Origin: an uncultured Sporosarcina sp.
GTDB lineage: Bacteria; Bacillota; Bacilli; Bacillales_A; Planococcaceae
Assembly: GCA_947644645.1 (NCBI GenBank)
Contig: CANSAF010000002.1
Span: 1-64,000, forward strand
DNA: 64,000 bases
Reading direction: 5' to 3'
Below the pieces are notes generated by a model, which saw nothing but the letters and a program-made list of their open reading frames with translations, was not told the origin of the DNA and did no database searches. The translations under genes were made by a program, and so were the position numbers. Below, piece after piece: positions 3,091 to 51,586 of the stretch (positions are counted from its first letter, which is position 1; every line of letters begins with the position of its first letter).

Positions 3091-3153
3091 GAGTTAAATC
3101 AAAAAAAGGAGATTTTGTAAGGAACCCCATCAACTCCACGAAAATAAAAACAG

Positions 3154-3200
3154 GAGGCTATCCGAAAAAATCATGAACTGCCGATTTTTTGGATAGCCTC
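3154..3200 (-). terminator. Terminator of secA2 (bidirectional stem)
   Basis: Near-perfect 18-bp stem: GAGGCTATCCGAAAAAATC at 3154-3172 against its complement at 3183-3200. It lies 14 bases after the secA2-like stop codon on the minus strand. Confidence 0.8.
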
Positions 3201-3214
3201 ACTGTTAGGAAATT

Positions 3215-5581
3215 TTACTCAAGAGTCGCTTTAATTTGCTCGTTGTATTGCTTCATAAAGTGAATGATTTCTTGCGCGATATTGCGGCGAAGTTTTTGGT
3301 AATGTGTACCGAAAATTTCCAGTCCTTCACGCTGATAAATACGCATTGGGTCTTCTTGAGAATATGAACGAAGACCAATTCCTTCCTTCAGTCGTGTCAT
3401 TGCTTCAAGATGCTTCACCCATGTTGAGTCGATATGTGCGAGCATGACTTGTGGAATAATTTGCAGTAAACGTTCGTCTTCTTCAAAGTCATCCATAAAC
3501 GCGACCAATTCACCGAGTGGTTCGTCGATTAATTGGAAGATTTCTTTCGTTGTCGTTACCGAATTCGGAATTTCGATGGGTGTTAATAATAAAGCATTCA
3601 TCGTTCTTTCGATTTGTTTTAAATCCCATTCTTCATGATTTACATTATCCGGGCAACTTTCATAAACGACAAAATCAACTAATTCTCTTACCATTATTTG
3701 TACATTTTCAAATAAATTTACACGTTCAATGACGTTATTTCTTAATGTGTAGATGACATTTCTTTGTTCATTAATGACATCATCAAGTTTTAAGTTATAT
3801 TCACGCATTGAGAAGTGAACACCTTCGACGATTCTTTGTGTTCTTTCTGTTAATTCGTGAACAAATGCATTTGTCACGAGACCTGTTTCATCTGTCTTAA
3901 CTTTTGGTTTGAGTTTCTCAACTTCTTCTTTTGCGAATCTCGTGTACATTTCATCTTCCAGAGAAAGGAAAAATCGGCTTTCACCAACATCGCCTTGTCT
4001 ACCTGAACGACCACGAAGTTGGTTATCAATTCTACGGCTTTCATGTTTTTCAGTCCCTAATACGAAAAGACCACCTAAATTTTCAACATTTTCACCTAAT
4101 TGAATATCTGTACCACGACCGGCCATATTTGTCGCGACAGTAATTTGTCCATGTTGGCCTGCTTGAGAAATTAAATAAATTTCTTGTTCAACACTTTTCG
4201 CGTTTAAAAGATTGTACTTTAAATTTAGCTCATCCAAATATTGACAAACCTTTTCTGATTGTAAAATAGATGTTGTTCCAACAAGTACAGGTTGTCCCGT
4301 TTCATTGCGCTTTGCGACTTCTTTTGCAACAGCTTTATATTTTTGATCGACTGTTTCATAGACGAAATCAGGTTGGTCAATTCGAGCAATCGGTCTGTTT
4401 GTCGGGATTTGAACGACATCCATGCCATAAACTTCACGGAATTCTTTTTCTTGTGTTTTCGCAGTTCCTGTCATTCCACAAAGAACGGGATACATACGGA
4501 AATAGTTTTGAATCGTAATTTGCGCTTGGGCTTTATTTTCTTCAGTGATTGTTACATGTTCTTTTGCTTCAATCGCTTGATGAAGCCCGTCTGATAAAGT
4601 ACGACCTTCCATAATACGCCCTGTAAATAAATCGACTAACTCGATTTTATCTTCTTTAACGATGTAATCGACATCTTTTTGGAAAATAACACGCGCACGC
4701 ACAGATTGAATGACGTAATGATATAGTGTTTGATGTTCTAAATCATAAAGATTATCAATACCAAAAGCACTTTCAACTTGTTCTATTCCTACATCTGTTA
4801 AAGAAGTTGCTTTTGTTTCATCGTCGAATTCGAAATCGACGCCTTTTTTAAAACGTTTCGCTAGGCGCGCAGCAATTTGATGTAAGTCGGCATCAGCTTG
4901 CATTTTCCCCGCGATAATTAAAGGTGTTTTCGCTTCATCGACAAGGACACTGTCTACTTCATCGATAATGGCAAAATGGTATGGACGTTGAACTCTTTCG
5001 GCTGGTGTTTGTACCATATTATCTCGTAAATAGTCAAAACCAAATTCAGTCCCAACTCCGTACGTAATATCTGCTAAATAAGCTTCTTTTTTCTCATCAG
5101 GCTGCATCATTGGAATATTTAAGCCGACAGTTAAACCGAGAAAACGGTGAATTTGTCCGATTTGTTCAAAGTCACGCTTAGCTAAATAATCGTTTACAGT
5201 TATGACATGTACACCTTTTCCTTCAAGTGCGCGGACGTAGGAAGGCATAGCTGCTACAAGTGTTTTACCTTCACCAGTGGGCATTTCAGCAATATTCCCT
5301 TCAGTGAGCACAAGGCCACCGATGAGTTGAACATCATACGGACGCATTGATAAAACTCTTCGAGATGCTTCTCGCACAACGGCAAATGCTTCAGGTGTAA
5401 TGTCAGCAATGGTTTCATTGTTTTGCAGGCGTTCTTTAAAATCTACTGTCATCGCTTGCAGTTCTTCATCAGAAAAAGCTTCATATTTACTTTCTAATTT
5501 ATTTATTTGATTAACAATTTTGCGGTATTTTTTTAATTGACGTTCGCTTGTTTTGCTCGAACGTTTGAAAAATGATAACAT
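3215..5581 (-). CDS. secA2: SecA2-like accessory preprotein translocase ATPase
   Basis: ATP-driven motor that feeds proteins to the SecYEG channel. All SecA helicase motifs are present: Walker A (PTGEGKT), DEVD, MTGTAKT, NMAGRGTDIQLG and QLRGRSGRQGD, with the preprotein cross-linking and helical-wing regions between. At 788 residues it is shorter than housekeeping SecA (about 840), and it ends at QYNEQIKATLE without the cysteine-rich zinc-binding tail that recruits SecB. Both features point to a SecA2-type paralogue with a restricted set of clients, as in Listeria and mycobacteria. The flagellar-cluster neighbours of housekeeping secA (prfB, yvyD) are also absent. Neighbouring TagO and LCP genes hint at cell-envelope clients, which is inference. 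Confidence 0.88.
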   Translation of the reverse strand: MLSFFKRSSKTSERQLKKYRKIVNQINKLESKYEAFSDEELQAMTVDFKERLQNNETIADITPEAFAVVREASRRVLSMRPYDVQLIGGLVLTEGNIAEMPTGEGKTLVAAMPSYVRALEGKGVHVITVNDYLAKRDFEQIGQIHRFLGLTVGLNIPMMQPDEKKEAYLADITYGVGTEFGFDYLRDNMVQTPAERVQRPYHFAIIDEVDSVLVDEAKTPLIIAGKMQADADLHQIAARLAKRFKKGVDFEFDDETKATSLTDVGIEQVESAFGIDNLYDLEHQTLYHYVIQSVRARVIFQKDVDYIVKEDKIELVDLFTGRIMEGRTLSDGLHQAIEAKEHVTITEENKAQAQITIQNYFRMYPVLCGMTGTAKTQEKEFREVYGMDVVQIPTNRPIARIDQPDFVYETVDQKYKAVAKEVAKRNETGQPVLVGTTSILQSEKVCQYLDELNLKYNLLNAKSVEQEIYLISQAGQHGQITVATNMAGRGTDIQLGENVENLGGLFVLGTEKHESRRIDNQLRGRSGRQGDVGESRFFLSLEDEMYTRFAKEEVEKLKPKVKTDETGLVTNAFVHELTERTQRIVEGVHFSMREYNLKLDDVINEQRNVIYTLRNNVIERVNLFENVQIMVRELVDFVVYESCPDNVNHEEWDLKQIERTMNALLLTPIEIPNSVTTTKEIFQLIDEPLGELVAFMDDFEEDERLLQIIPQVMLAHIDSTWVKHLEAMTRLKEGIGLRSYSQEDPMRIYQREGLEIFGTHYQKLRRNIAQEIIHFMKQYNEQIKATLE

Positions 5582-7051: not shown

Positions 7052-8110
7052 TTATTCTTCTGTCGTAAGCTCCCCACGGTTTGTTGTTTCAAAACTTCCC
7101 TCGGAACGTGTTTTATCCGTTAAAGTTGTTGTATATGGTGAAATCCCAAGATGTGTTTTCAATTCATATTTTAATTCTTCTAAAGCATCTTCATCGACAA
7201 TCCAATAATAAGGTCCTTTGGATTGATCATCTTTTCCTTCGAGTGTAAGTGTCGAAATTTCAGGTAATCCACCTTTTACATACTCTAAAAAGGATTTCAT
7301 TTCATTATATTTCATATCTGTTTTCATATTGTCACCAATCGCGTCAATGACATCACCATATTTGGTAATGGCTTTTACAGAAAAGGCTTCTTTCGCAATG
7401 GCTTCTAAAATCATTTGTTGACGTTTACCACGTTCGACATCACTGTCAAGTTTACGCGTTCTTGCAAGAGCCAATGCATGACGTCCATCTAAATGCTGTT
7501 GTCCTTTTTTAAGTTGAACTGTTCTTTGATCATTTTCATCTAGTTCTACATGATCATAAGGGACTTCGACATCAATTCCGCCAACTGCATCAACGACATC
7601 AATGAAAGCATTGAAGTTCATTTTAACGTAATAATCAATTGGAATTTCTAAAAGGTTTTCTACAGTATCAATCGTTCCTTTTGTGCCACCAAATGCATGC
7701 GCATGATTAATTTTGTCTTTACGTTCGCGATTCGGATCATACACATAAGAGTCACGTGGAATACTTAATAGTTTTACTGTTTTCTTCTTATTGTTTAATG
7801 TTGCGACAAGCAAAGCATCAGAGCGAGAATTTCCATTTTCTTTTCTTAAATCACTTTCGTCAACACCGATAAATAAAATAGACACATTGTCTTGTAGCGG
7901 TTCGACAGCAGTATCACGTAAGTCGGATTTTGTTCTATCATGCAATTCTTCATAAGCTCGATCAGCCGCATCATTTGTCTTTTTTTGCAAATAAACGCCG
8001 TAACCTACGACGCTCAAAAATAGCGCAAGTGCAGTGAGAAGCATGAATTTCAACACTGTCCGCTTTCCAGAACGTTTTTTGGTCATACGTTTATATTCTG
8101 TTCTTTTCAT
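7052..8110 (-). CDS. LytR-CpsA-Psr (LCP) family glycopolymer transferase
   Basis: Extracytoplasmic phosphotransferase that attaches wall teichoic acid or similar glycopolymers to peptidoglycan. The 352-residue protein has a basic cytoplasmic N-terminus, one membrane anchor (about residues 20-42) and an LCP catalytic domain with the phosphate-binding residues in SRSDALLVATL, LLSIPRDSYV, KINHAHAFGG and the arginines of ALARTRKLDSDVERGKRQQ. The C-terminal tail is acidic and low in complexity. Start ATG has GGAGGAAG upstream. It pairs functionally with tagO next door. Which TagTUV paralogue it matches cannot be decided here. Confidence 0.9.
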   Translation of the reverse strand: MKRTEYKRMTKKRSGKRTVLKFMLLTALALFLSVVGYGVYLQKKTNDAADRAYEELHDRTKSDLRDTAVEPLQDNVSILFIGVDESDLRKENGNSRSDALLVATLNNKKKTVKLLSIPRDSYVYDPNRERKDKINHAHAFGGTKGTIDTVENLLEIPIDYYVKMNFNAFIDVVDAVGGIDVEVPYDHVELDENDQRTVQLKKGQQHLDGRHALALARTRKLDSDVERGKRQQMILEAIAKEAFSVKAITKYGDVIDAIGDNMKTDMKYNEMKSFLEYVKGGLPEISTLTLEGKDDQSKGPYYWIVDEDALEELKYELKTHLGISPYTTTLTDKTRSEGSFETTNRGELTTEE

Positions 8111-41889: not shown

Positions 41890-42465
41890 CCATTCTCTCC
41901 TGTCTATGTAGTTGGTATTTTTGAATATAGAAAAATACGTAGGTGGTTCTTGTTTGAAACTTTACGTATGGATTCTCATAAAAGTATGTAGGTATATAGT
42001 TACATGTTAATCAATTAAAACTAAACAAATCATGAACATTATATAAACATACAATAAAAAACTTTGTAAATGCTGGTATATAGCAGTTTGTATGGCTATT
42101 CATACTAAAAAACTATGTAGAAAAAATATATTTATATAGCATTAAATACCTACCCTGTATTTATAGTTTAATGGATAGGTGGGGATTATACAAGTTGTTG
42201 GGTTTATATGATTAGTGTTCATTAGAGAAGCCGAAAGAAGGGAGCAATTAATAAAACTTGAATAGAAGAATTTAAAAAGAAAGTGGTTAACATAAAGCAA
42301 AATATATATTAATTCAAAAGACCTTTATAGTTTTAATGATGTTACTTTAGATTTCTTGTGATTTGGGTGAAAAGACTTGTTTTTGAGTACTTAAGATTTA
42401 AAAAGTGGTATAATTGATACAAAAAGTCAGTTTTATTTACGTGGAGATTGGATGTGGGAGTTTGT
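41890..42465 (+). promoter_or_regulatory. AT-rich divergent promoter region with extended -10 promoter for the giant flagellin
   Basis: No gene fits in these 576 bases. Near the right end an extended -10 (TGG then TATAAT at 42409-42414) would start a transcript about 45 bases before the giant flagellin ATG. No SigD box (TAAA-N15-CCGATAT) was found for it. Confidence 0.5.
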
Positions 42466-45400
42466 ATGAAAATTAATACAAATGTTCAAGGGTTAAGAAC
42501 GACTAATCATATGAATCGATTACAAAATGCAAATGGTAAAATAACAGAGAAATCAAGCTCGGGATTATCGATTAACAGGGCAGCTGACAATGCATCTGGT
42601 CTCGCGATATCTGAGAAAATGCGCGCACAAATTCGAGGGCTTGCACAAGCAGACCGAAATATTCAAGATGCTAAATCATTAATGAATACAGCGGAAAGTG
42701 GACTAGGGAATATTACAGATATGATGCAGCGTATGAGGGAATTAGCAATTAGCGCTTTAAATGATACACATACTGAATTAGATCGCCAATTAATCAATGA
42801 AGAATTCAATCAGTTGAAACATGCGATAGACAGCGCTACTAAACATAGTGAATGGAGTGGTAAGCCAGTTATTGATAATCACAGTCCAGCGTATAATGAA
42901 ATCCAAGGCAATCACGTATTTCCCAAAAGTACAGCAGTTCGAATTATTAGTGGTTTAAACGATGATTTGACAATTACCATCGATGGTATACCGCGTACTG
43001 TGAAATTACCTGAGGGTGAATATGAACCTGTTGATATTTTAATCGATATTTTGGATGATTTATTAATAGAAATCGACCCAAATTTGATTGCGCATGTAAC
43101 CGAGGACCGTACAATTTCAATTCAAGCAGAAAATAGTCAATCGATTGATCATATAAAAGGCGGCGCATCTTTCCTATTCTATGAATACACTTTTGGAAAT
43201 CCACCTGGGATGATTATAGGTTCGACCGAGTACAAGGCAAACGGTAAAATTGAAATTATTGAAGGAAAAAGTGATGAATTGACTTTTTATATAGGAGATC
43301 GTCAATTTCAATATACATTTCCAAAAGGTGAATATACCAAAGATGAGATATTACAGTTAATTAACGATGAACTCATTCGCATGGGGGAGACCGAGGTAGA
43401 GGCGAAAGCTTATGGAGATGAAAAAGTTGCAATCACTTCTAATAAATATGTAATCACAGGCGTTGGCGGTAATATGATAGAAATCGATGGCCATACATCT
43501 ATTTTATATGATAATCGACAATCGGGTTATATTTCCAAATCTCAAGCAACGGTTTCAGGCTATAAAGATATACGAAATGATGTGAAATTCACTTCCGCAA
43601 ACGATAAATTATATGTTTACGTTGAAAATAAAAAAGTGGAAATTGATTTCTTAACACCGCCAGAAACAGAAATCACATTATCAGCAGACCAAATTATAAA
43701 ACGAATTAATGTAGCGTTTCAAAATGAAGGTATACAAGCAAAAGCAACGATTAGCACTTCAGGTCGACTGGTAATTGCGAGCGATTATTACGGCGCTAAA
43801 AGTTCCGTAGTAATTGATGATGAAAATTCAACAGCATTTGATGATTTGTTTGTAAGCTATCAAGAAGGATATAGAAATGTTTTTCCAAATAAAGGTCAAA
43901 ACGCTGTGTTACAAGGTTATTACACAATTGGACAATCTGTTGAAATTACCGATCAGAATAATGTTTTAATAGGTCAAATTGACGGGCAAGATTTTACAAT
44001 TGAACTTGATCCGAAAACGTATACTCGAGACGAACTATTAGCGGCATTGAATGAAAAAGTAGTGGATTTACCAATCGAATTCCAAATAAGCTCAACTGAA
44101 ATTAATGGGAAATCAGCCGTCACGATTAAAAGTACAGATTCATTCGGTCAAATTTCTTTAGATAAGGATATGGCACTTTTTGACACACTGATGTCTGGAG
44201 TACGTGTAAATATTTATTCACCTACACTTGAAATAGGAAAGACTACGAGAATACCTACTCCTGAAGGAATTGTGGCGGCGCCTGAGTATGAGTACACGCC
44301 TGCAACTGCGGTAAGTCGTTCAAATTTGAATAATTTAGAGATTTCAACTCATAACAATAAATTTACATATGAACTTAACGGAGTTACAGAAGAAATATTA
44401 TTGGAATTCGGAACCTACGCAACAGCAAAAGATTTTATAGAAGCGCATAAAACAAAGTTTGAAAATCAAGGTCTCCTTATTTCAAGTAATTTATCGGGGC
44501 AATTAATCGTAAAAACAAAAGAACTGGGTGAAGGGCAAGTATTAAGAAATTTCGGCGGGAATTCTTATGAATTTATTATGGGCAAAAGAGTTGAAACTGA
44601 AGAAGTGCCACCTAATATTGCAAATTCGTCTAAGACAACGCTTACGGGAATATATGAAGTTCCTAAAGACTATAAGATAGATGATAAAAATAATACGATG
44701 AAATTTAGTTATAGTCATGAAGGTAGTGCATATATAATTGAAGTGGAGCTAGATGCTGGAACTTATGCAACACCTGAGCAGTTAGCCAAACATTTGCAAG
44801 AGAAAATTTCGGAAAAGCTCCGTTTGGAAAATTTAGATGAGAATGATGTGCGGGTAAGTGTGAATTCCTCGGGGAGATTCATGCTTGAAACTAACCATGC
44901 AGGTTCAGATTATACAATTGAAAGTTTCGAAGAAAAACTCTTCGATGAATTATTTAGAAAATATGAAACTGTATCGAAACCGAGGCCATCTGATAAAGGG
45001 ACTTCGATAGAAAAAGAAACCTATATCGTTGGACGTGATTTGATTAAAAATAAGGAATTTATAATCCATCCTGAAATAAATGATTTACTTCAATTTGATT
45101 TAAAAGTGAATGGTGCTGTTACAAAGCTTCAAATCAAGCTTGAAGCAGGTAAATATAATCATACAGAATTGATTGTCCATATAAATAAAGCGTTAGGAAT
45201 CGAGCTTAAGAATAAGGGATTTGAGCGGGATTTATTGCGAGCGCAAATGGGTGGCGTGGATAGTGGTACTGCACAAAATGATGCGGATAAAATGGTTTTT
45301 ACAATCAATAGAAATGAGGATGGGCGTAACGATTCTGGTAGTTATGTCATCGACAGTATTCGCGGAACGGCTGCTTATACATTTTTCTATCCGTCAGAAG

Positions 45401-46116
45401 GAGATCCAGAACCTTCGCATACAATTGGTATCAAAGACCTTTCAGGTGGAGCTACTATTATAGAAGGGGAAAATGATACATTTATAGTAGATGTTGACAA
45501 TAAAGAAAAGAAAATCATTTTACCGCCAGGTGATTACAACAAAGATGATTTATTGGAAAAAATAAACGAACAATTATCTGCTGAGAATGCCGGAATCATT
45601 GCGTCTTATTTTGAAGGGAAATTGAAATTAAGCACAACTGAAACAGGCCAAGTCCCAATCGATGGCATTCGTGGTAATGCAAGAGGCACATTATTTTACG
45701 AAACTGAAACGAGAAAAGAAGATCAAGAGTGGACATTCCAAACAGGCCCGAATAGTGGAAGCAACGTCACGATGGACAAAGCAAGAACATCCGCTAAGCT
45801 ACTGCGGATTAACACATTATTGATTGATGATCCAATAAGAGCAGGAAAAGCATTACAACGTCTTGACGAGGCTATCAAAACAATTAGTCGCGAACGTTCG
45901 AAAATTGGTGCTTACACAAATCGACTAGAACACGCGATGAACAGCGTACGTATGACCAATGAAAACCTAGCAAGAAGCGAATCATTAATCAGAGACACCG
46001 ATATCGCAAAGCAAATGATGGAAAAAGTGAAAAATGATTTATTATTGGCTGCTAATCAAACAGTGATTACCCATGTGAACAATCAGCCGGGGAAGGTTTT
46101 GGAGTTGTTGCGGTGA
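42466..46116 (+). CDS. Giant flagellin with repeated beta-domains
   Basis: 1216 residues from ATG 42466 (GGGAG 5 bases upstream). The ends are true flagellin: N-terminal D0/D1 (MKINTNVQGLRTTNHM ... GLAISEKMRAQIRGL, about 1-140) and C-terminal D1/D0 (SKIGAYTNRLEHA ... SESLIRDTDIAKQMM ... GKVLELLR, about 1125-1216). Between them are about 970 residues of seven or eight related units near 100 residues each. Each has a strand, a G-x-Y turn, a helix with L..IN, and a G-x-L strand (FPKGEYTKDEILQLIN, LPPGDYNKDDLLEKIN, LDAGTYATPEQLAKHL). They resemble flagellin hook/IN-type domains and would project from the filament surface. A filament of this protein should be thicker than normal. It may co-assemble with hag. 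Confidence 0.9.
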   Translation: MKINTNVQGLRTTNHMNRLQNANGKITEKSSSGLSINRAADNASGLAISEKMRAQIRGLAQADRNIQDAKSLMNTAESGLGNITDMMQRMRELAISALNDTHTELDRQLINEEFNQLKHAIDSATKHSEWSGKPVIDNHSPAYNEIQGNHVFPKSTAVRIISGLNDDLTITIDGIPRTVKLPEGEYEPVDILIDILDDLLIEIDPNLIAHVTEDRTISIQAENSQSIDHIKGGASFLFYEYTFGNPPGMIIGSTEYKANGKIEIIEGKSDELTFYIGDRQFQYTFPKGEYTKDEILQLINDELIRMGETEVEAKAYGDEKVAITSNKYVITGVGGNMIEIDGHTSILYDNRQSGYISKSQATVSGYKDIRNDVKFTSANDKLYVYVENKKVEIDFLTPPETEITLSADQIIKRINVAFQNEGIQAKATISTSGRLVIASDYYGAKSSVVIDDENSTAFDDLFVSYQEGYRNVFPNKGQNAVLQGYYTIGQSVEITDQNNVLIGQIDGQDFTIELDPKTYTRDELLAALNEKVVDLPIEFQISSTEINGKSAVTIKSTDSFGQISLDKDMALFDTLMSGVRVNIYSPTLEIGKTTRIPTPEGIVAAPEYEYTPATAVSRSNLNNLEISTHNNKFTYELNGVTEEILLEFGTYATAKDFIEAHKTKFENQGLLISSNLSGQLIVKTKELGEGQVLRNFGGNSYEFIMGKRVETEEVPPNIANSSKTTLTGIYEVPKDYKIDDKNNTMKFSYSHEGSAYIIEVELDAGTYATPEQLAKHLQEKISEKLRLENLDENDVRVSVNSSGRFMLETNHAGSDYTIESFEEKLFDELFRKYETVSKPRPSDKGTSIEKETYIVGRDLIKNKEFIIHPEINDLLQFDLKVNGAVTKLQIKLEAGKYNHTELIVHINKALGIELKNKGFERDLLRAQMGGVDSGTAQNDADKMVFTINRNEDGRNDSGSYVIDSIRGTAAYTFFYPSEGDPEPSHTIGIKDLSGGATIIEGENDTFIVDVDNKEKKIILPPGDYNKDDLLEKINEQLSAENAGIIASYFEGKLKLSTTETGQVPIDGIRGNARGTLFYETETRKEDQEWTFQTGPNSGSNVTMDKARTSAKLLRINTLLIDDPIRAGKALQRLDEAIKTISRERSKIGAYTNRLEHAMNSVRMTNENLARSESLIRDTDIAKQMMEKVKNDLLLAANQTVITHVNNQPGKVLELLR

Positions 46117-46655: not shown

Positions 46656-48736
46656 ATGATTATTAACAACAACATTGCGGCGTTAAACACACATCGCCAA
46701 TTATCATTCAACAACACGAACGTAGGTAAAAACCTAGAGAAACTTTCTTCAGGTTTCAAAATCAACCGTGCAGGAGACGACGCGGCAGGTCTTGCAATAT
46801 CTGAGAAAATGCGCGCGCAAATCAAAGGTCTTGACATGGCATCTAAAAACGCACAAGACGGTATTTCATTAATTCAAACTGCTGAAGGTGCACTCGCTGA
46901 AACACACTCCATCCTTCAACGTATGCGTGAATTAGCAGTTCAATCTTCTAACGATACAAACATGAACGAAGTTGACCGTGAAGCAATGCAAGCTGAAGTA
47001 AATGCATTATTAGAAGAAATTGATTCAATTGCAGATCGCACAGAGTTCAACACACAAAAATTAATTGATGGGAAATTTAGCGATAAAAAATTCCATATTG
47101 GTGCAAATGAAGGACAAAGCATTAATGTCTCAATTCGTGCGATGGATACGAAAAATATTGGTCTTGTAAGCCAAGAGAAAGTAACAGCTGAAACAGTAGA
47201 CGCTAGTACATTGACAGCGGAGGAATTAGAGGCGATTGGATTAAAAGATTTTAATCTCACTAACACTGCTGGTACTAATATTGATGTGTTAAAAGATAGT
47301 GATGATAAGATTATTGCTATTAAAGTAAATGATGGTGGAGCGTTAGATGGAAAATACGTAGGAATTACTGACGTAAAAGTTGGAAGTTCAGATGATACAG
47401 ATGCAGATACTACAAATGACCAAATTGTGGCTAGTGACAATGCAAAAGAATTCAAAAACTTCACAGTATCAGCTGAAAATATTGCACTAACAGTTGATGG
47501 AAAATCATTTGCTAATACAAATGTTTTAACAGATGGAAATGATGAAGTTTTAGCTGTTGAAGTTGATGGTAAAATGTATGAATTAGCCGATATTAAACAA
47601 GACGCAGATGGAAATCTAGCAGTTAAAGATGGAGCTAAAGAATATCAATTTGCTGCAGGTGATAATGTGGCAGATGGCGGAAAAGTATCAATTACAAATC
47701 AAAAAGATGCTGATAAAGCTATCAAAACAATCAACGATGCACTTAACGTTGTATCAACTCAACGTGCAGATCTTGGAGCTATCCAAAACCGCCTAGAGCA
47801 CACAATTAACAACCTTGGTGCATCTTCAGAAAACTTAAGTGCAGCAGAATCACGTATCCGTGACACTGATCACATGCAAGTAGCGGCATAAGCTGTGAAA
47901 TAAGCGTGTAGTCGTCCAGACTGGTAACGGTCTGTGAGCATCATTGGGTGAATTGCTGGAACACCTTGTTAGAGCTTTTCTCACCACAGCGTAGTTGGAA
48001 ACGACAAGCGCGACGGTTTAAAAAGAGAAAAGAGGAGGCAATCAGCAGCGAAGCCCCTGTCGGGAAACCGTGGGGAACGTTCAACGACTAGGACATACCA
48101 TCTACAGCGAAAGCCATGATGATGAAGTCCGTAGGGAACTAATCCTTGAGTAAGGTTATGACCCGAAGCGCCCAACCCCTAATCAATAAACACAAGCTAT
48201 TGGAAGGGTGAAGAGATAGTCTAGTCATGTATGAGAATACATGTCGCACGATGGCGAAAGAAATGATGGAGTTCACAAAGAACAATATCTTAACTCAAGC
48301 AGCACAAGCAATGTTAGCTCAATCGCAGCAATTACCTCAAGGCGTACTACAACTATTAAGGTAATTCGATTGCACGGGCGTCCATCGTAGTAATATGATG
48401 GATAATTACTGGGTGAATTGCTGGAATATCCTGAGAGCTCTTCTACCACAGCAGAATCGGAAACGATAAATGTGATGGTTTGAAAAACGGAGAGATTGGA
48501 CAATCAGCAGCGAAGCCCCTGTCGAGAAATCGTGGGGAACGTTCAACGACTAGGATATACCGTCTAAGGTGAAAACTACGACGATGAAATCCGTAGGGTG
48601 TTATATGACTATAACATTCGAAGCGCCCAGCATCCTAGGAAGTAGGATGAAGATATAGTCTGACCTTTATAGAAATATATCGGATGCATCGCAAGCAAAC
48701 CAACAACCTCAAGGAGTTCTACAACTATTACGTTAA
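46656..48736 (+). CDS. hag: Flagellin Hag, interrupted by two group I introns (join 46656-47870, 48251-48319, 48692-48736)
   Basis: The filament subunit. Exon 1 encodes 405 residues (MIINNNIAALNT ... ENLSAAESRIRDTD) including D0/D1 and a variable domain of about 180 residues. Exon 2 encodes 23 (MAKEMMEFTKNNILTQ...), exon 3 encodes 14 (QANQQPQGVLQLLR). The joined protein, 442 residues, has an exactly canonical Bacillus flagellin C-terminus. Both joins fall between codons. Each upstream exon ends in U and each intron in G, as group I splicing needs. Without splicing, exon 1 runs to a stop at 47889 after six foreign residues. GGGAGG lies 9 bases before the ATG. Splicing itself is inferred from sequence, not shown. 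Confidence 0.9.
47871..48250 (+). ncRNA. Group I intron 1 in hag (380 nt)
   Basis: Conserved core elements in order: P (AATTGCTGGA, 47951-47960), Q (AATCAGCAGCGAAGCC, 48040-48055), R (GTTCAACGACTAGG, 48079-48092), S (AAGAGATAGTCT, 48211-48222). P1 can form: exon GAT pairs with GTC at 47911-47913 giving the U-G pair at the cut, extended by ACATGC with GCGTGT (47904-47909). The final G (48250) is the omega-G. No endonuclease gene lies inside. Confidence 0.9.
48320..48691 (+). ncRNA. Group I intron 2 in hag (372 nt)
   Basis: P (AATTGCTGGA, 48416-48425), Q (AATCAGCAGCGAAGCC, 48502-48517), R (GTTCAACGACTAGG, 48541-48554), S (AAGATATAGTCT, 48650-48661). P1: exon GCT with GGC at 48377-48379, U-G at the cut, extended by CAATCG with CGATTG (48367-48372). 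The core from Q to R is nearly identical to intron 1, so one arose from the other or both from one source. Its first 45 bases encode, in frame with exon 2, QSQQLPQGVLQLLR and a stop. Confidence 0.88.
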
Positions 48737-48815: not shown

Positions 48816-49862
48816 TTACAATTGATGGTTACTTCGTAGTTCTCGCACTTTATAGACGATTGACCAATACGTCCGACCTAATTCATCAGCAATTTCTTGG
48901 TCACTCACCTGTTTGTTTTTTGCTTGAATGATAAATTGTATTTCTTCTTGGGAATATCTTCTATTCCTTATAGGTGAGCTAATTTTAATGGTTACATCAT
49001 GACCGTATTTATGTTGTATACTCTCTGTTTTCAGCTTAATGTTTTCTTCTAAACTCATTTTATATTTCATCGATGGAATTTCTTCAGTGTATAAAGAAAT
49101 TACTTTCAATAAGTGCTGAACCTCCTCTACTTTATTTAATTTTAATAATGCTTGATGCCCATCAGGATGACCAGATACGACAAAATTGGTACCAAAAACG
49201 TTATTGAGATGGTTGGCTAATAATTCATTTTCACTTCGAGTAAAATTTAAAGTATATAAAATAATACTTGGATGACAATAGATGGTATTTTGCTTGCGGT
49301 TGTACTTATAAGAAATCGTTAAACTACCATCGTCAAGATAAAGTGTTGTTAAAAAGATAGGATGGGTGCATTTCGAAAGAAACTCCTTATCTAAAGTTTT
49401 AATCCCATTTGGATAGAGAGAAGAACGTAACTCCTTGAAATAAGGCAAGCTAGTTGAACGCAGAAAGTTTCCGTTAATTGAAAAAGATAAATCTTTTAAA
49501 TGAGCTAATTTCCATTTGCGATATGCCCTTTGACTTTCTCCGAAATGCTCTTGATAATAGCAATTGACGCTTCGTTGTGCACCGGTACTAATATAAGCAT
49601 CACCGAGTAGACTGCCAAAAATGATTTGCTCTTGAAAATGTGAAGGATTGAAGTCTGGTATATTGTTCTCATGCCACTTTTTACGGTTTACAACTAACTG
49701 ATCTTTTAATTGTTGTTTATAAGTAGGACATTTTAAAATATTATTTTTCCTTGCTATTGTTCGCACTTGATGAATGCTAAGGTGTAAATGCTTTGCAACA
49801 TCTTTCGTTGGTGTAACAGGAAAAAACTTTTTAACATAATCTATTAACATTTCCGTTTCCAT
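48816..49862 (-). CDS. LAGLIDADG homing endonuclease with flanking helix-turn-helix domains
   Basis: 348 residues. N-terminal helix-turn-helix (TPTKDVAKHLHLSIHQVRTI, about 17-36), first LAGLIDADG-type helix IIFGSLLGDAYIS (about 79-91), second TTLYLDDGSLTI (about 174-185) and a C-terminal Myb/helix-turn-helix-like motif (SQEEIQFIIQ ... QEIADELGRTYWSIVYKV). Acidic residues of both LAGLIDADG helices are kept, so it is probably active. GGGGAGG precedes the ATG. It lies just behind hag on the opposite strand, not inside an intron, and may cut intronless hag alleles; that target is inference. Confidence 0.85.
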   Translation of the reverse strand: METEMLIDYVKKFFPVTPTKDVAKHLHLSIHQVRTIARKNNILKCPTYKQQLKDQLVVNRKKWHENNIPDFNPSHFQEQIIFGSLLGDAYISTGAQRSVNCYYQEHFGESQRAYRKWKLAHLKDLSFSINGNFLRSTSLPYFKELRSSLYPNGIKTLDKEFLSKCTHPIFLTTLYLDDGSLTISYKYNRKQNTIYCHPSIILYTLNFTRSENELLANHLNNVFGTNFVVSGHPDGHQALLKLNKVEEVQHLLKVISLYTEEIPSMKYKMSLEENIKLKTESIQHKYGHDVTIKISSPIRNRRYSQEEIQFIIQAKNKQVSDQEIADELGRTYWSIVYKVRELRSNHQL

Positions 49863-50812: not shown

Positions 50813-51586
50813 TTATTGGTCGCAATGTTTGAAATAAAGTTTTAGGACAGATGGATTTAGTTGTTCGTTTTTAAATAATAAACGCAAGTGTTTTAATGCT
50901 TGATGAATATCTTGTGTTGGCGATGTCAGTTGAATTGTTTCAGGTAAGTAGATGGTTGTTCTATTTGCAATGGGACGTAAAGGTAAAGGGACTAGCGCTT
51001 TTCTGTTCATGCAAGGTTGCAACCATGGCTCGACTAAGTATAAGAAGTAAATGATTTGAAACTGATCATACAAGATGAGGCGATTTTGCTGGTCTAGTTT
51101 GAAAGAGAATTGCCATTTTTTATAAAGTAAATGTTGCAAAAAGAGATTTTCCTTTGTAGTGAAACAATCTGTAGATAAGATGATTTTTTGCATTTTTCCA
51201 TTGGTAATTTTCAAATGGCCATCATCTTGATACCACCAGCTTAATGCTTCTTCGTTTAAATAGCGTTCTAGAAATTCGTGAGGGAGTATTTTTATGCCAC
51301 CGGGATACCATAATTCATATAACTCAGTAACGATTGGGGCTGTTTTGGACTGTACGTAATAAAGTTCAGAATAGCCCTTTTTTAATCGTGGGTCGGAATT
51401 TTTCCTGTAAGTTGGTTGGTTTAGTGGGATACTGTCTTTTAATTGCTTGAAGCAGTAATTTGTCCACTCGTAATCTTCTGTTCTGTGTTGAAACTTGAAA
51501 CGTGGTTTTCTATCTTTCTCTTTGACGATGCTGCCGTCACCGAGTAGTTTTCCGCAGATACGGTGGTGGAAGTTGGGTGTTGTCAT
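50813..51586 (-). CDS. LAGLIDADG homing endonuclease, second gene
   Basis: 257 residues. First LAGLIDADG helix ICGKLLGDGSIV (about 9-20) and second ALSWWYQDDGHLKI (about 112-125), both with the catalytic aspartate. It lacks the extra N- and C-terminal helix-turn-helix regions of the gene at 48816 and is only distantly related to it. ATG preceded by AAAGGAGC on the minus strand. It is not inside any recognisable intron. Confidence 0.85.
   Translation of the reverse strand: MTTPNFHHRICGKLLGDGSIVKEKDRKPRFKFQHRTEDYEWTNYCFKQLKDSIPLNQPTYRKNSDPRLKKGYSELYYVQSKTAPIVTELYELWYPGGIKILPHEFLERYLNEEALSWWYQDDGHLKITNGKMQKIILSTDCFTTKENLFLQHLLYKKWQFSFKLDQQNRLILYDQFQIIYFLYLVEPWLQPCMNRKALVPLPLRPIANRTTIYLPETIQLTSPTQDIHQALKHLRLLFKNEQLNPSVLKLYFKHCDQ

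Follow-up and report, generated by a model that had tools for sequence, protein, structure and literature searches.

Group I introns have been described in the flagellin genes of thermophilic Bacillus, and their splicing was reported to be temperature-dependent (PMC3984707, PMC4853749). According to PMC3984707, bacterial protein genes are considered unfavourable hosts for such introns, whose folding is disturbed by coupled translation. Intron 2 of the hag gene analysed here likewise belongs to group I and interrupts a flagellin gene of the Bacilli, but it holds a spare version of that gene's end, a feature that the passages describing the thermophilic introns in PMC3984707 and PMC4853749 do not mention. 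The hag arrangement would represent a widespread answer to the problem of folding under translation, in that with a working gene end inside the intron a failure of splicing would cost nothing.

Mobile ORF elements in fungal mitochondria supply a replacement C-terminus to the genes that they enter, namely atp6 in Allomyces and atp6, atp9, cox2 and nad3 in Glomus (PMC3630166). Hag intron 2 similarly contains an in-frame copy of its host gene's C-terminus, and as far as that source describes them the fungal elements share with it an insertion near the gene end, a foreign copy of the C-terminus whose protein matches and whose DNA differs, and LAGLIDADG genes. The fungal element is an endonuclease frame and not a ribozyme, whereas intron 2 is a ribozyme; in addition, the displaced native ends of atp6 and cox2 are described as not expressed, in contrast to the displaced end of hag (exon 3), which is under selection, a sign that it is probably in use, and would be reachable by splicing. 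In the collaborative homing outlined in PMC3984707, phage group I introns are associated with free-standing endonucleases. Hag intron 2 resembles those introns in being without an ORF and in having a separate endonuclease gene nearby, and differs from them, as they are outlined there, in its chromosomal flagellin host gene and its spare exon. A further self-splicing bacterial intron able to yield more than one message is the group II intron of a surface-layer gene in Clostridium tetani, for which four alternative splicing reactions are described (PMC3919590); the C. tetani intron relies on several splicing reactions, whereas in hag the alternatives would be a spliced and an unspliced message with a near-identical protein end. 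Among the titles and abstract openings listed from the open full-text literature, which most subscription papers fall outside, none described a group I intron that carries a duplicated host-gene end under selection.

In the window (the whole 64,000-nucleotide stretch of DNA that was analysed), hag is interrupted by two group I introns, at 47871-48250 and 48320-48691. The features of the locus are as follows.

46656-47870, + strand: hag exon 1, encoding the flagellin N-terminal domain, the variable middle and the start of the C-terminal domain (Pfam Flagellin_N and the first 52 Flagellin_C positions in 46656-47891)
47871-48250, + strand: group I intron 1, 380 nt (Rfam RF00028 at 47906-48243, 71.4 bits)
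48251-48319, + strand: hag exon 2, MAKEMMEFTKNNILTQAAQAMLA
48320-48691, + strand: group I intron 2, 372 nt (Rfam RF00028 at 48353-48682, 99.0 bits), its ends placed by comparison
48320-48364, + strand: spare terminal exon within intron 2, QSQQLPQGVLQLLR followed by TAA, its first codons forming one strand of the P1 extension
48365-48380, + strand: second strand of the P1 extension (CGATTG region) and internal guide sequence GGGC (pairing test, exon-guide co-variation and single-sequence fold)
48692-48736, + strand: hag exon 3, QANQQPQGVLQLLR followed by TAA
48754-48786, + strand: terminator-like hairpin with a T run 3' of exon 3, spotted by eye and absent from the pattern-scan output
48816-49862, - strand: free-standing LAGLIDADG endonuclease gene, 348 aa, antisense and directly downstream of hag (Pfam LAGLIDADG_2, E 2.8e-19)
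50813-51586, - strand: second LAGLIDADG endonuclease gene, 257 aa, antisense (Pfam LAGLIDADG_2, E 5e-30)

Both introns exceeded the Rfam group I intron cut-off of 50 bits on the + strand. The ends of intron 1 were placed from the U before the 5' site, the G at the 3' end and related genes that have no intron 1; the last codon of exon 1 is GAT, ending at 47870, and the probable 5' junction lies between GAT and CAC. The probable splice sites of intron 2 fit the group I rule, with U48319 preceding the 5' site and G48691 as the last intron base, and the intron also has the conserved catalytic core and the exon-guide pairing in P1 that are expected of this class. Adjoining hag, at 42448-46116 on the + strand, lies a gene whose flagellin-like product of 1222 residues has Flagellin_N and Flagellin_C at its ends, separated by a very long middle region.

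The 3' end of exon 2, ATGTTAGCT (48311-48319), continues in frame into CAATCGCAGCAATTACCTCAAGGCGTACTACAACTATTAAGGTAA (48320-48364), which encodes QSQQLPQGVLQLLR and a stop, and the exon 3 DNA, CAAGCAAACCAACAACCTCAAGGAGTTCTACAACTATTACGTTAA (48692-48736), encodes QANQQPQGVLQLLR and a stop. This confirmed the preliminary description, in which exon 2 was said to run without interruption into intron 2 and the two tails to agree at 11 of 14 residues despite differences in their DNA; in the window, 3 of 14 residues and 10 of 42 bases differ between them. The predicted tryptic C-terminal peptides of the two tails are NNILTQAAQAMLAQSQQLPQGVLQLLR and NNILTQAAQAMLAQANQQPQGVLQLLR. The further claim that a complete flagellin is encoded whether or not intron 2 is removed is upheld by the sequence evidence, and the claim that the intron holds a copy of its host gene's end was extended well beyond the window, as an intact in-frame 14-codon tail with its stop was present in 145 of the 149 distinct intron-2 hag genes among the matches listed. 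The spare in-frame flagellin end in intron 2 is real, and not a product of chance.

The set of 149 genes comprised the pooled, non-redundant matches listed, for which the exon 2 end and two ribozyme motifs, but not the tail, were required; it demands the P7 motif, and leaves out locus L141 and genes truncated at contig ends. Most of the VLxLL motif is already part of the criterion for an intact tail, which only 4 of the 149 genes failed. An earlier pass had identified an intact spare tail in 130 of 134 genes. A search of 201 genomes (the window genome included) with the intron minus its tail matched 65 of them, and 68 of 398 genomes matched in a sample of the class; the loci taken from these 68 placed an intron 2 in hag in 42 genomes (40 with the tail and 2 without) and none in 26. 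The exact 19-base core pattern was found in at least 116 stretches of named genomes.

The arrangement is widespread and is not restricted to the window genome. The 86 named genes with an intact tail carry 34 genus-level labels, and 66 of them belong to Bacillaceae. The remainder are from Caryophanaceae (Planococcus and Planomicrobium), Fictibacillaceae, Paenibacillaceae (Paenibacillus and Brevibacillus) and Exiguobacterium, together with one Bacillales MAG, one Caloranaerobacter (Tissierellia) and one record labelled Pseudomonas. The last of these (L137, titled Pseudomonas sp. ISL-84) has hag introns of the Bacillus type and is probably mislabelled or contaminated. Among the plasmid and phage matches listed (7 plasmid records and 20 of 58 phage records) there was no flagellin intron like intron 2.

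Judged by their substitution patterns, both tails are under purifying selection as protein. Across 61 independent pairs (122 genes), exon 3 had a dN/dS of 0.050, the spare tail one of 0.125 and the final 20 codons of exon 2 one of 0.127. The other two reading frames of the spare tail gave 1.51 and 4.84. Codons 7-14 of the spare tail had a dN/dS of 0.062, with 88 DNA sequences for 11 peptides in the 122 genes. By group, the Exiguobacterium group (9 pairs) had a pN/pS of 0.034 for the spare tail and 0 for exon 3; the corresponding values were 0.217 and 0.044 for the 20 pairs of the window's family, 0.352 and 0.143 for the 4 pairs of the Oceanobacillus group, where the spare tail is less constrained, and 0.153 and 0.107 for the 36 pairs of remaining genes. 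Exon 3 is the more constrained of the tails, which suggests that splicing is the usual outcome and the spliced form the main form.

When tail was compared with tail in 141 genes, an average of 13.2 of 42 bases and 2.3 of 14 residues differed. Residues 9-13 (VLQLL) were identical in both tails in all 141 genes, a motif that is mostly imposed by the filter for the spare tail but not for exon 3. Residue 14 follows clade in both tails and matched between them in 136 of the 141 readable genes (R/R 120, Q/Q 10, G/G 6), the mismatches being K/R in three genes, Q/N in one and Q/R in one; four genes were unreadable. The consistent differences lie near the start of the tails: exon 3 has A2 in 140 of the 141 genes, N3 and Q4 in 141 each and Q5 in 130, whereas S2 occurs in 105 of the spare tails and Q5 in just 6. 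We also considered a recent conversion of one tail by the other, which is unsupported, as the share of identical codons was 0.408 within genes versus a permuted mean of 0.395 (sd 0.010); own pairs sharing no more codons than swapped pairs, the two copies are old.

The opening codons of the spare tail form a helix with the stretch that separates the spare stop from the guide sequence. In 115 distinct sequences this P1 extension gave -6.00 kcal/mol for cognate strands versus -4.07 kcal/mol for swapped strands, with 0 of 5000 permutations as good, and with one sequence per peptide (43 sequences) the values were -6.64 and -4.24, again with 0 of 5000 as good. The corresponding controls had 1606 of 5000 permutations as good for codons 7-14, 3818 of 5000 for P2 and 130 of 5000 for the reversed segment, the last of these being below what chance would usually give. 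The test leaves out loci L027-L030 (4 of 130), which were missed by the guide pattern. The single-sequence fold of the P1 region in the window was unexceptional (z -1.32, 22 of 200 shuffles as good).

Exon 2 ended in GCT or TCT in 141 of 141 genes, and the combinations of exon end and guide were GCT/GGGC in 134, TCT/GGGA in 4 and GCT/GGGA in 3. The four TCT genes are close relatives, so the change to TCT/GGGA counts as one event, and with GCU^C pairing with GGGC the P1 proper is short and the three GCT/GGGA genes count against it. This exon-guide co-variation nevertheless places the probable 5' splice site at GCU^C, ahead of the spare tail, and the tail itself within the P1 stem-loop. At the other end of the intron, the last base was G in 145 of the 146 genes in which exon 3 was located.

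Natural losses were found in both directions. In four genes (L016, L026, L052 and L089) the spare tail was lost or absent and the ribozyme and exon 3 were retained, with introns above the Rfam cut-off. The spare tail of L016 has a frameshift and that of L089 has two CAA codons that are now TAA; L026 and L052 have an intron with a short P1 loop and no spare tail. Conversely, L169 has retained the spare tail in a gene whose last intron base is A and whose exon 3 stop is lost, although its intron still scores 77.9 bits in Rfam, and in L141 the spare tail is retained, the ribozyme breaks off with no Rfam match, and no exon 3 tail was found within the next 1.8 kb. No hag end with both endings lost was observed among the hag ends examined. 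The genomes of L016, L089, L141 and L169 each have another hag copy, so these natural losses are hints and not proofs.

The four genes that lack an intact tail do not group together in the core tree (4 changes), a placement that favours loss of the spare tail. In L026 and L052 the short P1 loop includes TTGCATAA, which resembles GCATAA in intron 1 of the window; this would also fit an older tail-less state or an exchange with intron 1. On the reverse strands of L057 (around 3150-3490) and L059 (around 7740-7830) there are orphan 3' intron ends with a flagellin-like tail, apparently debris; the orphan ends of L022/L057 and L059, which have no preceding hag frame, were excluded from the counts.

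LAGLIDADG relatives were located within 1.2 kb of 39 of the 106 intron-2 genes with enough flank, all antisense and downstream, versus 2 of 16 genes without intron 2 (p 0.086), and the endonuclease type nearest hag in the window was found beside 28 of 106 versus 0 of 16 (p 0.022), counts that leave out 42 intron-2 and 9 intron-less genes with short flanks, treat L141 as intron-less, and compare with intron-less genes that were found through intron 1 or neighbouring matches and are therefore not a random sample. These downstream antisense genes suggest mobility. The window shows the arrangement of collaborative homing, with endonuclease genes (48816-49862 and 50813-51586) beside the intron-bearing gene, and it is plausible that intron 2 and an endonuclease gene form a homing cassette. 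By the list of open reading frames, intron 2 of the window has no endonuclease frame, and elsewhere, among the introns scanned, one was found in L255 only. There a 242-residue frame (from about base 1700) within intron 2 is related to the second endonuclease of the window (27% over 100 residues, E 4e-7), and it coexists with a spare tail and an exon 3 that both end in SVLQLLG.

With the anatomy of the locus, its splice-site logic, the selection on both tails, the co-variation of the P1 extension and the losses in both directions established by sequence comparison, we consider it probable that intron 2 is a built-in fail-safe, a ribozyme whose P1 holds a functional duplicate of the final 14 flagellin codons with a stop, such that spliced and unspliced messages would both give a working flagellin. 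A ribosome that reached the 5' splice site before splicing would read through the P1 loop, add QSQQLPQGVLQLLR and stop just before the guide, and if P1 formed first (GCU^C with GGGC, plus the extension helix) the RNA would be cut after U48319 and exon 3 joined, adding QANQQPQGVLQLLR; the product would be a full-length flagellin by either route. We infer that splicing takes place in the window strain. Translation of the tail and formation of P1 would be mutually exclusive and hence in competition, and the benefit would presumably be insurance against failed or slow splicing, not regulation.

The preliminary description had proposed that a complete flagellin is obtained in two ways, which stands, and that splicing would be a switch between the two tails. 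A regulated switch, in which temperature, growth or translation rate would set the ratio of tails and the tails would alter filament properties, is unlikely in our estimation. Exon 3 and the spare tail do differ consistently at residues 2-5, and the flagellin introns of thermophilic Bacillus were reported to be temperature-dependent and proposed as regulators in the parts of PMC4853749 that treat them. The codons for residues 2-5 form the P1-extension helix, however, so a constraint on RNA pairing can explain the difference there, and residues 9-13 are identical and residue 14 follows clade in both tails. The opposite emphasis, that the spare tail was retained purely as an RNA element of P1 and not for protein, is scarcely credible: its first codons do pair, and L026 and L052 have a P1 extension without a tail, but codons 7-14, which have no cognate pairing, nevertheless have a dN/dS of 0.062 and contradict it.

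A further rival has the spare tail as the only end in use, intron 2 as part of the 3' untranslated region and exon 3 as a defunct duplicate; a dead exon 3 following a finished gene had been named in the preliminary description as an outcome that would undo its reading. The gene is indeed complete to the spare stop, and L141 persists without the rest of the intron and exon 3. The purifying selection on exon 3 (dN/dS 0.050), the G that ends the intron in nearly all genes, the four genes that retained ribozyme and exon 3 without an intact spare tail, and the exon-guide co-variation that sets the 5' splice site before the spare tail all contradict it, and with selection and splice-site conservation ruling against it we regard the possibility as very remote. 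Slightly less improbable, and still highly doubtful, is the proposal that exon 3 is conserved by repeated homing into fresh hag genes, the spare tail being an insertion tool and later splicing hardly mattering. The antisense LAGLIDADG genes downstream of 39 of the 106 intron-2 genes with enough flank, the endonuclease-like frame inside the L255 intron and the persistence of L169 and L141 without intron 2 splicing would agree with this, and the conservation of exon 3 could owe something to introns moving into fresh genes. Against it, the introns mostly cluster by taxon in the core tree and a genus has many carriers, the 19 genes (9 pairs) of the Exiguobacterium group show 7 synonymous but no nonsynonymous changes in exon 3, and the ribozyme and its last base G are preserved in nearly all genes.

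The fail-safe could, on a more tentative reading that we hold to be possible but rather improbable, be part of a self-neutralising mobile element with a P1 stem-loop that also serves as a coding terminal exon. The race between ribosome and ribozyme would set the mix of two tails in the filament, and the intron and its endonuclease gene would spread without impairing motility. As translation of the tail requires ribosomes to melt P1, the ratio of spliced to unspliced message would then read out translation load or temperature. Hag intron 2 is a natural system for measuring the race between ribosome and ribozyme, and allows one to ask how mobile introns turn harmless; if the two ends differ in function, it would be a bacterial example of alternative terminal exons. 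As the gene looks complete to the spare stop, annotation may also overlook the intron and take it for untranslated sequence.

Intron 1 has no such protection, as had been claimed. In the window its frame reads HMQVAA and then a stop, with no spare tail, and in 114 of the 115 rows listed (a redundant set) the frame stopped after 5-6 codons, the other row being a gene without intron 1; removal of intron 1 would therefore be needed for a whole flagellin. The short in-frame opening peptide with its stop (47871-47900 in the window) recurs in relatives (YALAA, YVLSAA and HMQVAA, each followed by a stop), and perhaps serves to halt ribosomes before they reach the ribozyme core. The window's genome has a third group I intron (50.6 bits), located at 100-323 on the - strand of L003 (contig C99), within a frame ending in HLLTVAPTGK. 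The interrupted frame is presumably that of a ribonucleotide reductase, a known intron host.
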